Positions 15,746-40,680 of a stretch of 64,000 nucleotides of DNA are shown here, piece after piece. The stretch's first letter is position 1. Each line of letters opens with the position of its first letter. The notes under the pieces are model-generated. The model was not told where the DNA came from and ran no database searches. It worked only from the letters and a program-made list of their open reading frames with translations. The position numbers and the translations under genes were made by a program. Where the stretch lies: the NCBI RefSeq assembly GCF_001909285.1, contig NZ_MRSV01000001.1, forward strand, positions 2,064,556 through 2,128,555, read 5' to 3'. Source of the stretch: Exiguobacterium profundum. Its GTDB lineage: Bacteria; Bacillota; Bacilli; Exiguobacteriales; Exiguobacteriaceae.

Positions 15746-16831
15746 TTATTTTACGTTTTTCATGAACTCTTCGAACTCAGCGTCAGTTGCTGGTGCAACA
15801 ACATCACCATCGATGATTTGTTGACGATACTCATCAACTTTAGTGAGCACGTCTGCAGCAACGTTTTCTTCAGAAGTTGGTGCGATTCCTACACCTTCAT
15901 CTTTAAGTGAGAATTCAACCACTTCACCAGCTGGGAACTTACCGTCCATTGCCATTTTCGACACTTCGAGTGTCGCTGTATCTACACGTTTAACCATTGA
16001 CGTAAGAGTAACGTTCTCTGGAAGACCTTCTTCGTACTGGTCACGGTCAACCCCGATGACCCAAACTTCTTCACCGTTTTTCTTACGGTTTTTCGCTTCA
16101 GTTTATACACCTACACCTGTACCACCAGCTGCATGATAGATGATATCAGATCCTGATCCATACATACCTGACGCAATTGCAGTTCCTTTTTCAGCTGAGT
16201 TGAAGTCTTCAGCATATTTTACGTCGATTGTCGCATCAGGGTTTACAGCCATGACACCAGCTTTAAATCCATTTTCAAACTTCTTGATCAAGTCTGATTC
16301 TACTCCACCGATGAAACCAACTTTATCAGTCGTCGTTGTAAGACCAGCTACTACACCTACGAGGAATGAACCTTCTTGTTCCTTAAACGTGATTGAAGCA
16401 ACGTTCGGTGCATCTACAACCGAGTCAACGATTGCAAAGTTGTTATCAGGGAATTGTTCTGCAACTTTTCCGATATCCTCTGCCATCAAGAAACCGATTC
16501 CGTAGATCAAATCAAATTGATCACGTGCCAATTGTTGCAAGTTAGGCTGATAGTCTGCTTGTTTTGCTGATTGAAGATATTTGTATCCTTCGTTTTCAGT
16601 TAAGCTATTTTCTTCCCCAAACTTTTTCAAACCTTCTTAAGCTGATTGGTTGAATGACTTGTCATCAACACCACCAGTATCCGTGACCATTGCAACTTTG
16701 AAGTCGCTACCTTCTCCGCCTTCACCGTTTGAAGATGAGCCTTCGTTGTCATCTCCACCGCATGCTGCGAGTACTGTAGAGAGTGTGAGTCCTGCTGCTA
16801 AAGCTGAGAGAATCGTTTTCTTTTTGTTCAT
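15746..16831 (-). pseudogene. nupN: BMP-family nucleoside-binding lipoprotein NupN-like, interrupted by two in-frame TAA codons
   Basis: One uninterrupted frame of 362 codons encodes a BMP/Med family substrate-binding lipoprotein, apart from TAA at codon 65 (16637-16639) and codon 243 (16103-16105). The parts in order are a signal peptide with lipobox LAAC (Cys24), a Gly/Ser/Glu-rich linker, [15 protein letters not shown] then stop where the family has Trp, the central domain ending AAGGTGVGV then stop where the family has Phe, and a normal C-terminus. No indel is needed: all three pieces share the frame and total family length (361 aa). As written, only a 64-residue truncated lipoprotein would be made. 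A CcpA-type site lies upstream. Confidence 0.85.
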
Positions 16832-36387: not shown

Positions 36388-39300
36388 TTACACCCCAAAA
36401 TCAAAGAATGAGAGTTGGTTCTCATCAGGCAGACCTTCGAGACATTTCATCGTATCGAGTGTCTCGATGACCGTTTTCGAAAGTTTCGCACGTTTCCGCA
36501 AATCTTCTTTCGAAAGGAACTGTCCTTCTTCCCTTGCTTCAACAATCGCTTTTGCCGCATTCGTTCCCAGTCCATCGACCGCGTTGAAAGGTGGAATCAG
36601 CGTATTGTCTTCAATCAAGAACTCTGTCGCACTCGACCGATACAAGTCGATGTTTTGGAACTTCATTCCCCGCTCGAGCATTTCGAGCGCAAGTTCGAGG
36701 ACCGTGTGTAGCCCTTTATCCTTCGCTGTCGCATCGAACCCTTTTTCTCGAATATTTGACATCGCCTTACGAACGGCCTGGGGACCTTTGATCATCGCGG
36801 ATAAGTCAAAATCTCCCGCTCGAACGGTAAAGTACGTCGCGTAGTACAGAATCGGATGATGTACTTTAAAGTATGCAATCCGGACCGCCATTAACACGTA
36901 GGCAGTCGCGTGTGCTTTCGGGAACATGTACTTGATTTTCTTACAAGACGAGATATACCATTCCGGCACGTCATTCTCTCGCATCTCGGACTCCATCTCT
37001 TCCGTAAGCCCTTTCCCTTTCCGGACGGATTCCATGATTTTAAAGGCGAATGACGGTTCGAGGCCCGCGTAAATCAGATAGACCATGATGTCATCTCGAC
37101 AACCAATCACATCCTTCAGTTCGCACGTCCCGTTATAAATCAATTCGTTCGCGTTCCCGAGCCAGACGTCTGTTCCGTGGGATAGACCGGAAATTTGAAC
37201 GAGCTCCGAGAACGTCGACGGTTTTGTCTCTTCAAGCATCTGACGAACGAATTTCGTCCCGAATTCTGGAATCCCGAGCGTCCCGGTTTTCGATTCAATC
37301 TGTTCTGGTGTCACCCCAAGCACTTCTGGTGAAGAAAAAATCTTCATGACTGTCGGGTCATCTGTCGGAATCGTCTTTGGATCGATACCAGACAAATCCT
37401 GTAACATCCGGATGACGGTCGGGTCATCATGCCCGAGAATATCAAGTTTCAATAAGTTGTCATGGATGGAGTGGAAGTCGAAGTGAGTCGTCTTCCATTC
37501 AGACGAATTGTCATCCGCCGGATATTGAATCGGGGAGATATCCGCGATGTCCATATAGTCCGGTACGACGATGATACCCCCTGGGTGTTGCCCCGTCGTC
37601 CTTTTTACACCGGTGACCCCAGAAACGAGACGGTCGACTTCGGCGTTCCGATAAATCTTATCGTTCTCGGTCGCATAGCCTTTCACGTATCCATAAGCCG
37701 TTTTGTCGGCAATCGTGCCGATTGTCCCGGCACGATAGACGTATTCTTCTCCGAACAGTACTTTTGTATAGGCGTGGGCATGCGGTTGATATTCACCTGA
37801 GAAGTTCAAGTCGATATCCGGTACTTTGTCCCCTTTGAAACCAAGGAATGTCTCGAACGGAATATCATGACCGTCTTTTTTGTACTTTTTTCCGCACTCC
37901 GGACACTCCTTGTCTGGCAAGTCATACCCCGAACCGACTGATCCATCATTAAAGAAATGTGAGTGCTGACAGTTCGGACAGACGTAGTGAGGCGGTAGCG
38001 GGTTGACTTCGGTGATTTCCGTCATCGTTGCGACGAGACTCGACCCGACCGACCCCCGCGAACCGACCAGATATCCATCATCGAGTGATTTTTTAACGAG
38101 TTTATGCGAAATCAAATAAATGACGGCGAACCCGTGACCGATAATCGATTTGAGCTCTTTCTCAAGACGCGCCTCCACGATTTCAGGCAACTCGTCTCCA
38201 TAGATGGAGCGAGCCATGTCGTAGCTCATATTCCGAACCTCATCATCTGCCCCTTCAATTTTAGGTGTGTACAAATCATCCGGGATGATTTGAATGGACT
38301 CAATCTGATCAGCGATTGCATTCGGATTCGTGATGACGATTTCACGCGCTAAATCGACACCTAAAAACTTGAACTCTTCCATCATTTCTTTTGTCGTCCG
38401 GAAGTGCGCATGTGGTAATTCCTTACGCGTATTGATGAAGTTTGCCCCACCTTGTGTACGAATCAAGATTTCGCGATAAGACCGGTCCGACCGATCTAGA
38501 TAGTGCACATTCCCTGTCGCACAAACCGGTAACTCGGCCTTCTCGGCGACACGAATGATGCGCTTAATGATTTCGCGGAGTTCTAATTCATTCGTCACAA
38601 TCTCTTTATCAATCAAATGGTGGTAGAGTGCCGGGGGATGAATCTCGATAAAGTCATAAAATGACATCATCTTCTCGAGTTCATCATCCGACTTGTTCAA
38701 GGCGGCGTCAAAAATCTCCCCGTTATCACAAGCCGAACCAATCAATAATCCTTCTCGCCGTTTCACAAGCTCGGAACGTGGCATGCGTGCCATCCGATAC
38801 AAGTAATCGATGTGAGATAAGGAGATGAGCTCGTATAAATGACGAAGTCCTGGCTTTTTGTTTTTCGCGTAGATGGTCGCATGGAACGGACGAATCTTCG
38901 ACACGTCACTGCCGACTTTCGCGTTCAACGAGCGATGTGTCGTCATTTCGAACATCTGCTTAGCGAGATCGAGTAACTTCATGAGCAAATACGCCGTTGC
39001 TTCCGCATCGTAAATGGCACGGTGATGTTGTGTCAGTTCGATATCGAATCGCTTCGCGAGTGTATTGAGTCGATGATTCTTCAACGTCGGCATCAACGTT
39101 CGAGCAAGTTCGAGCGTGTCGATGACCGGGTAATCGTCCGGTTCATGCCCACCACTACGGAGTGTCGCCTCGAGGAAGCCCATGTCGAATGACGCGTTAT
39201 GGGCAACGAGAATGCTGTCGCCACACCACTCGACGAACTGTTTCGTGATCACTTCCGGGTCCGGTTGACCTTGAACCATGTCATCCGTGATCCCTGTCAA

Positions 39301-40680
39301 TTCGATGGTGGTCGCTGACAAGGCATGTTTCGGGTCGGCGAACGCTTCAAACCGGTCAATGATTTCTCCGTCCTTGATTTTAACCCCAGCGAGTTCGATG
39401 ATTTTATTGTAGACGGCAGAAAGTCCCGTTGTCTCGACGTCGAAGACGACGTATGTCGCATCATCCAATGCCACATCGGTCGCATGATAAGCGACAGGGA
39501 CACCATCGTTGACGACGTTCGCCTCGACTCCGTATAACACTTTGATATCATTTTTCTTCCCGGCTTAATAGGCTTCCGGGAACGCCTGAACTCCAGCATG
39601 GTCGGTAATGGCAATGGCACGGTGTCCCCATTTTGCGGCACGAGCGACGAGCGACGAGACATTTGTGACGGCATCCATTTGGCTCATCTGCGTATGCGCG
39701 TGAAGTTCGACGCGTTTCTCACCTTCCCATTCGTCACGTGGTGGTTCTACTTTTACTTCTTGAAGTTGAGATGCCATCATACATAGTTCGCGCATAAACG
39801 AATCATCTTCAACCCGACCGGCCGTTTGAATCCACATCCCTTTTTTGACGGCACTTAGCATACGGTCGTCATCGTCATCGCGTGCAAATACCTTCACAAT
39901 CAATGAGTCTGTGTAATCCGTCATCTTGAACGTGAATAGTTTCTTACCACTCTTCAACTCTTTGCGCTCTGCTGAGAAGACGAGTCCACGAATCGCGACA
40001 CGTCGTTCTTCCTCGATAATCGTCTTGATTGGGACAATCTCATCTTTAATGAGCGCACCCATCCGGATTTCTGTAATCGGTTCGTCGTTCGTTTCTGTTG
40101 CCTTGGCGAATTGGGCAGCCAGTGCCATTTTCGCTTGTTCGATATCTTCTTGAACGACCTGTTCGCGAAGGGCTTGATTTGCCTCAGCGTCTTCCGAAAA
40201 TTGAGCCTGACACGGTTTTTTTGTGAACCCTTAGGCACTATAGAGCGCCTGTACTTCTTGACAGAGCTCTTTGTCCACATAACTCGCCTCAGGTGCGGAA
40301 CGCACCGGAATCATAAGTTTGTTCTGCTCGAATCGTGGCGAAACGGAGCCGAAATAACTGCGCATCGCGCCAGATACTTGGCTCAACTCGCTGACGATTC
40401 GTGGCCAATAGTCGATATAGTCTTGCTCGCTCCCACCCGCTACTGTCGAGAATCGAGCGTACACCTCATCCGCAAACGTTGCATAACGGCTTTCTAGTCG
40501 ACTCATGAACAATTGATGCACGTCGTATGGCAATACTGCTGGAAATGAAAAATAGAACGTCCACGTCCGTCGCTTCTTATTGACGACGAGTCGTGAGAGT
40601 TCGGCCTGATCAAACAGGTCCGTCTCGGTCGTGATCCCAAGGTCACTTAATAATAATTGCATCTTTTGATTTGCTTCCAC
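36388..40680 (-). pseudogene. polC: DNA polymerase III alpha subunit PolC, frame interrupted by two in-frame TAA codons
   Basis: The Gram-positive replicative polymerase. A single frame of 1,431 codons (1,430 residues, normal for PolC) contains TAA at codon 150 (40231-40233) and codon 372 (39565-39567). Parts in order: N-terminal domain, OB fold (about 230-310), PHP domain split by the DnaQ-like exonuclease (FDVETTGLS), zinc-finger region (CPNC...CPEC), polymerase catalytic segment [12 protein letters not shown], and the C-terminal fingers. The first TAA falls where B. subtilis PolC has Phe (QFGFP), the second where it has Ser (FPDAYSA). No indel is needed. PolC is essential in relatives, so sequence error is likeliest. 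The start is GTG, or an ATG six codons on. Confidence 0.9.

Follow-up and report, generated by a model that had tools for sequence, protein, structure and literature searches.

Systematic substitution errors near homopolymers depend on the presence of a nearby homopolymer, act on a single target base in one direction, and can thereby introduce false stop codons into otherwise intact genes. A very different situation is met in ochre-suppressor strains, for example those with a mutated tRNA-Tyr in Escherichia coli, in which TAA in place of Tyr would be tolerated in essential genes. The two in-frame TAA codons in polC of Exiguobacterium profundum invite comparison with both systems. Like homopolymer-linked sequencing or assembly errors, the substitutions found in this genome (designated G000) are linked to a homopolymer, run in one direction towards a single base, and give rise to false stops; unlike them, they track the orientation of the finished contig and peak 15–16 bases from the start of a T run. 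Ochre-suppressor strains differ in that G000 shows no anticodon change in its incomplete tRNA set, contains all three stop codons within conserved frames, and has these at positions set by T runs. The stops in polC are almost certainly a systematic sequence artefact and not a real feature: with a probability of roughly 96%, both TAA codons are false and belong to a systematic substitution error that follows T runs in the assembly.

The gene lies within the window, i.e. the whole stretch of 64,000 nucleotides that was analysed, where the following features are relevant:

36388–40680, minus strand: polC (PolC-type DNA polymerase III alpha subunit), open but for two in-frame TAA codons; match to TIGR01405 with 1871.9 bits
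40231–40233, minus strand: TAA at polC codon 150, a probable miscall; base 16 has changed, with the opening T of a plus-strand T7 run as base 1
40216–40222, plus strand: the T7 run preceding the codon-150 miscall, read from the letters, with the distance counted
39565–39567, minus strand: TAA at polC codon 372, a probable miscall; base 15 has changed, with the opening T of a plus-strand T5 run as base 1
39551–39555, plus strand: the T5 run preceding the codon-372 miscall, likewise read and counted on the letters

Translation yields a single frame of 1,431 positions, final stop included, that begins with GTG and contains exactly two internal stops, both TAA, which occupy codons 150 and 372. The frame holds without any indel, as the preliminary description had stated. 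In all 18 relatives of the same genus, polC is uninterrupted and carries Tyr at both codons. Among the matches listed, 80 named polC loci were compared, three of which probably correspond to the relatives G006, G009 and G018 that are already contained in the same-genus set. At codon 150, 44 of the 80 have Phe, so that the earlier expectation of an aromatic residue in relatives holds at this position. Codon 372 is more variable (Ala in 28, Gly in 21, Ser in 16, Asn in 8, Tyr in 4, and three others), which is in keeping with the Ser that the preliminary description gave for B. subtilis. Stops among these 80 loci occur only at query position 1427, which is the natural C-terminus (nine loci). A genome stretch of 6,621 bases (L001) is identical to the window letter for letter.

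Conceivably, polC could be a pseudogene whose role has passed to another polymerase or to another copy, as the two stops in its frame might suggest. The chance of this is practically nil. Outside the two stops, the frame is 98–99% identical in protein to the relatives, and the assembly (2,917,168 bases in 21 contigs) contains no second full-length polC; the other four matches are partial, and two of them fall in dnaE, which has the same kind of stop itself. The idea of a second functional copy, for which the preliminary description had asked for a genome search, hence finds no counterpart in the assembly.

The stops in polC are two among dozens in the same genome and not specific to this gene. 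For a survey on the genome scale, 898 kb of G000 were compared with 859 kb and 480 kb, respectively, of two same-genus relatives, G001 and G016, and stops were counted where the protein is conserved on both flanks. Genes of G001 placed on G000 revealed 35 in-frame stops in 718 genes (22 TAA, 8 TGA, 5 TAG), and those of G016 revealed 20 in 415 genes. With the relatives as targets, the numbers were far lower, i.e. 4 in 727 and 1 in 416 genes for G001 as well as 3 in 422 and 1 in 416 for G016. Frame splits were not raised on G000 (3 and 2, versus 3, 1, 0 and 1 with the relatives as targets). Altogether, the 898 kb of G000 contain 37 distinct stop sites in conserved frames (22 TAA, 9 TGA and 6 TAG), at which Y, E, S, W, R, G, K, L, Q, C and F are replaced. 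In a three-way test of 407 genes (128,007 codons), 22 stops were unique to G000 and none to either relative, whereas missense changes showed no clear excess in G000 (2,545 unique changes versus 2,636 in G016).

NCBIfam searches with the relatives' versions of seven affected genes returned SMC, PriA, type I DNA topoisomerase, peptide deformylase, RNase HII, the GTPase YlqF (RbgA) and DNA polymerase III alpha (DnaE). In G000, dnaE has a short open frame and contains one in-frame TAA. Stops that fit the T-run rule outlined below are found on contig C1 outside the window at these positions:

1436130: dnaE
2160584: smc
2182666: priA
2145643: topA
2262916: def
2150457: rnhB
2151242: rbgA

Two further stops within the window fall in a gene that encodes 363 amino acids in the relatives' version:

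16637–16639, minus strand: TAA where relatives have Trp, with changes at base 15 and 16 from a T5 run at 16623–16627
16103–16105, minus strand: TAA where relatives have Phe, with changes at base 15 and 16 from a T5 run at 16089–16093

The product of this gene presumably resembles a Bmp-type substrate-binding protein; an NCBIfam search with the relatives' protein gave no match at E 1e-20.

At most of the stop sites, codon alignments show a homopolymer next to the stop: in minus-strand genes a run of A directly follows it, and in plus-strand genes a run of T directly precedes it. Bases neighbouring the stops are often altered to the same base, which is why the codon that follows a stop frequently differs as well. 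This relationship was quantified over 384,258 aligned bases. On the 3′ side of runs of at least five T, changes to T found only in G000 reach 10.5% at position +10, versus 2.8% in G016 and 2.5% in G001, and drop to 1.0% at +12. The rise is confined to T as the target base and to the 3′ side; other target bases are not raised. For T5, T6 and T7 runs alike, the peak remains at base 15–16 counted from the first T, with 12.4% at +10 and 10.7% at +11 for T5, 25.2% at +10 for T6, and 26.1% at +9 for T7. T2 to T4 runs gave no such peak in the same aligned bases, and nothing comparable was seen for A, C and G runs. In the two relatives tested, G016 and G001, the effect is absent and the profiles are flat. 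At 27 of the 37 stop sites of G000, the changed base is a T inside the zone that follows a T run, and such zones on both strands cover 3.6% of the block.

For runs of eight or more T on C1, the aligned gene segments provide 28 comparable sites at +5 in G000 versus 3 in G016, which looks as if the error also lengthened T runs in G000.

Readthrough or recoding of TAA had been among the options raised for polC, and a reading of TAA as Tyr was suggested by the appearance of most internal stops as TAA at Tyr codons. In that case the stops would be real, and an ochre suppressor tRNA or a codon reassignment in progress would make them tolerable in essential genes. Such genes are indeed affected, frame splits are not raised, and among the 22 stops unique to G000, eight are TAA at Tyr and four more replace Phe or Trp. 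This candidate was nevertheless rejected on account of the T or A runs beside the stops and the strand and distance rules. TAG (6) and TGA (9) occur beside TAA (22) among the 37 sites and many residues besides Tyr are replaced, while the sites track plus-strand T runs rather than Tyr codons. Adjacent bases that are not part of a stop are changed alike, and the excess of changes to T is equally large where no stop results. As no more than supportive evidence, both tRNA-Tyr genes found have a GTA anticodon, and two copies are present in 16 of the 19 genomes searched, including this one. A TTA anticodon was absent from the assembled tRNAs at 27 loci, a set that is incomplete because of arrays with N gaps. 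We consider a reading of TAA as Tyr extremely improbable. The initial resemblance to a recoding of Tyr is a consequence of the T-run rule, since a change to A in front of an A run converts TAT or TAC into TAA.

As for the tRNA genes themselves, the arrays L134, L146, L149, L150 and L153 are broken by N's, and some of the 27 tRNA matches in the genome are fragments or chimeras.

The pattern is also bound to one strand. Of the 27 fitting stop sites, 24 have their T run on the contig C1 plus strand; in 22 of the 24, which include both polC stops, the changed base is base 15 or 16. Block-wide, changes to T on the plus strand amount to 11.3% inside the zones after T runs versus 3.6% beyond, while the minus strand shows a weak excess (4.91 versus 3.69%, p 6e-6). 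When the region from 1.41 to 2.31 Mb was divided into bins of 100 kb, the plus-strand rate inside the zones (8.6–15.1%) exceeded that beyond (1.6–6.7%) in all nine bins, with little or no excess on the minus strand. A separate region of G000 from 0.6 to 0.8 Mb gave 13.9 versus 4.7% for the plus and 6.6 versus 4.6% for the minus strand; G001, which served as a control for this test, was flat (4.4 versus 4.65% and 4.1 versus 4.2%). The strand pattern was thus sampled over roughly 1.1 Mb of the genome.

The same asymmetry is apparent at the scale of the locus. Across polC, 9 of 62 positions inside the zones after plus-strand runs of at least five T were changed to T versus 1 of 136 beyond, and 5 of the 13 eligible positions at base 15 or 16 had turned to T. 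For the window as a whole, the plus strand gave 79 of 899 inside versus 32 of 1,919 beyond (p 5e-18), and the minus strand 7 of 446 versus 21 of 941. The rate beyond the zones would predict about 15 changes to T after plus-strand T runs, and 79 were observed; roughly 60 bases of the 64-kb window are therefore probably false T's.

Real mutations introduced by a cellular process that acts after T runs would offer another explanation, and a pattern that is sharp in distance and dependent on run length is what a polymerase-related process might leave behind. The GC skew of C1, however, is positive as far as about 1.8 Mb and turns negative at 1.9 Mb, and the effect does not change strands at this switch; it also stays on the contig plus strand for genes of both directions. 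Mutagenesis tied to the replication or transcription strand was rejected on these two grounds. Moreover, a cellular process would have interrupted polC, dnaE, smc, priA and topA all at once. Hence, we regard a mutational origin in the cell as very unlikely, also in view of the following data on selection.

If the changes had occurred in living cells, those at codon positions 1 and 2 should have been purged, as in G016 and G001, where changes in the same comparison are heavily skewed to codon position 3. In G000, changes to T at +2 to +11 reach 5.15, 3.81 and 11.93% at codon positions 1, 2 and 3, respectively, versus 0.71, 0.35 and 7.17% further away. The excess of about 4.4, 3.5 and 4.8 points is nearly even over the codon positions, is hardly purged at positions 1 and 2, and thus ignores nearly all selection. 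At the measured rates, 720 genes should contain 30.5 internal stops along with 280.8 missense and 84.2 silent changes. Under a strict rule, 19 stops were observed, fewer than the predicted 30.5; the stops in dnaE, rbgA and priA were missed by this rule only since G001 and G016 do not agree at the base in question, and a mild shortfall persists with these added. By arithmetic from the measured rates, the systematic error accounts for some 260 bases in the 384 kb, which is too few for a visible rise in the missense counts of the three-way test; to read those counts as evidence against any consensus error, as was done at first, was too strong. The reading that the strain truly has these stops, supplied by mutation directed by T runs, and reads through them sufficiently to make PolC, DnaE, TopA and SMC has only the slightest chance of being correct.

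Taken together, sequence error, one of the options initially listed for polC, is strongly supported, albeit in a more specific form, namely as a miscall that systematically follows T runs and is tied to a single contig strand. Where the plus strand of the main contig has a run of at least five T, the bases that follow, up to about the 16th from the first T and mostly the 15th and 16th, are written as T at an elevated rate. In minus-strand genes, this error would read as a change to A just before an A run, which could turn the Tyr codons TAT and TAC into TAA. In reality, polC would presumably be uninterrupted and encode Tyr at codons 150 and 372. Because the effect tracks the orientation of a finished contig of 2.8 Mb, regardless of gene strand, of the GC-skew switch and of nearly all selection, we infer that it originated in assembly, consensus calling or later processing and not in the cell. 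Shotgun reads derive from both strands, and a plain instrument error should appear on both; an effect on one strand therefore points to assembly, consensus or later processing. One may speculate that the reach of 16 bases reflects a fixed word length. We know of no tool that makes such an error, and a limited search of the literature, as far as its sources could be consulted, yielded neither a published description that plainly fits a contig-oriented rule with T runs and base 15–16 nor a likely tool.

A rule that depends on how the contig is oriented has a computational look and might for this reason also recall a sequence altered on purpose, as had been considered for polC. Yet the pattern extends through the roughly 1.1 Mb sampled, where silent, missense and stop changes are affected alike, and polC is not singled out. 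Deliberate alteration is accordingly an exceedingly improbable explanation. The systematic miscall after T runs, in turn, has consequences beyond this gene. It removes a false lead of stop-codon recoding in a Bacillales genome, and it implies that false T's occur in the assembly at a density of very roughly one per kilobase. Missense differences near T runs and apparent pseudogenes of this assembly are therefore not to be trusted. More generally, a test by homopolymer distance, contig strand and codon position can tell such artefacts from real recoding without recourse to reads.

A minority of sites departs from the main pattern. Three of the 27 rule-fitting sites have their run on the minus strand, and ten of the 37 stop sites lie off the T-run rule altogether. 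Five of the latter (1677223, 1853726, 1964796, 2014930 and 2067329) are situated near the N-terminus of a relative's frame, in a part where it is doubtful at which codon the protein truly begins. Two others, 1419257 and 1419287, share a frame with 1419302, whose own fit is limited to base 17 of a run on the minus strand. The stops at 1951243 and 2257059 each adjoin a minus-strand T run. For the remaining site, 2144098 in topA, a count on the letters gives a distance of 18 bases from the beginning of a T7 run.
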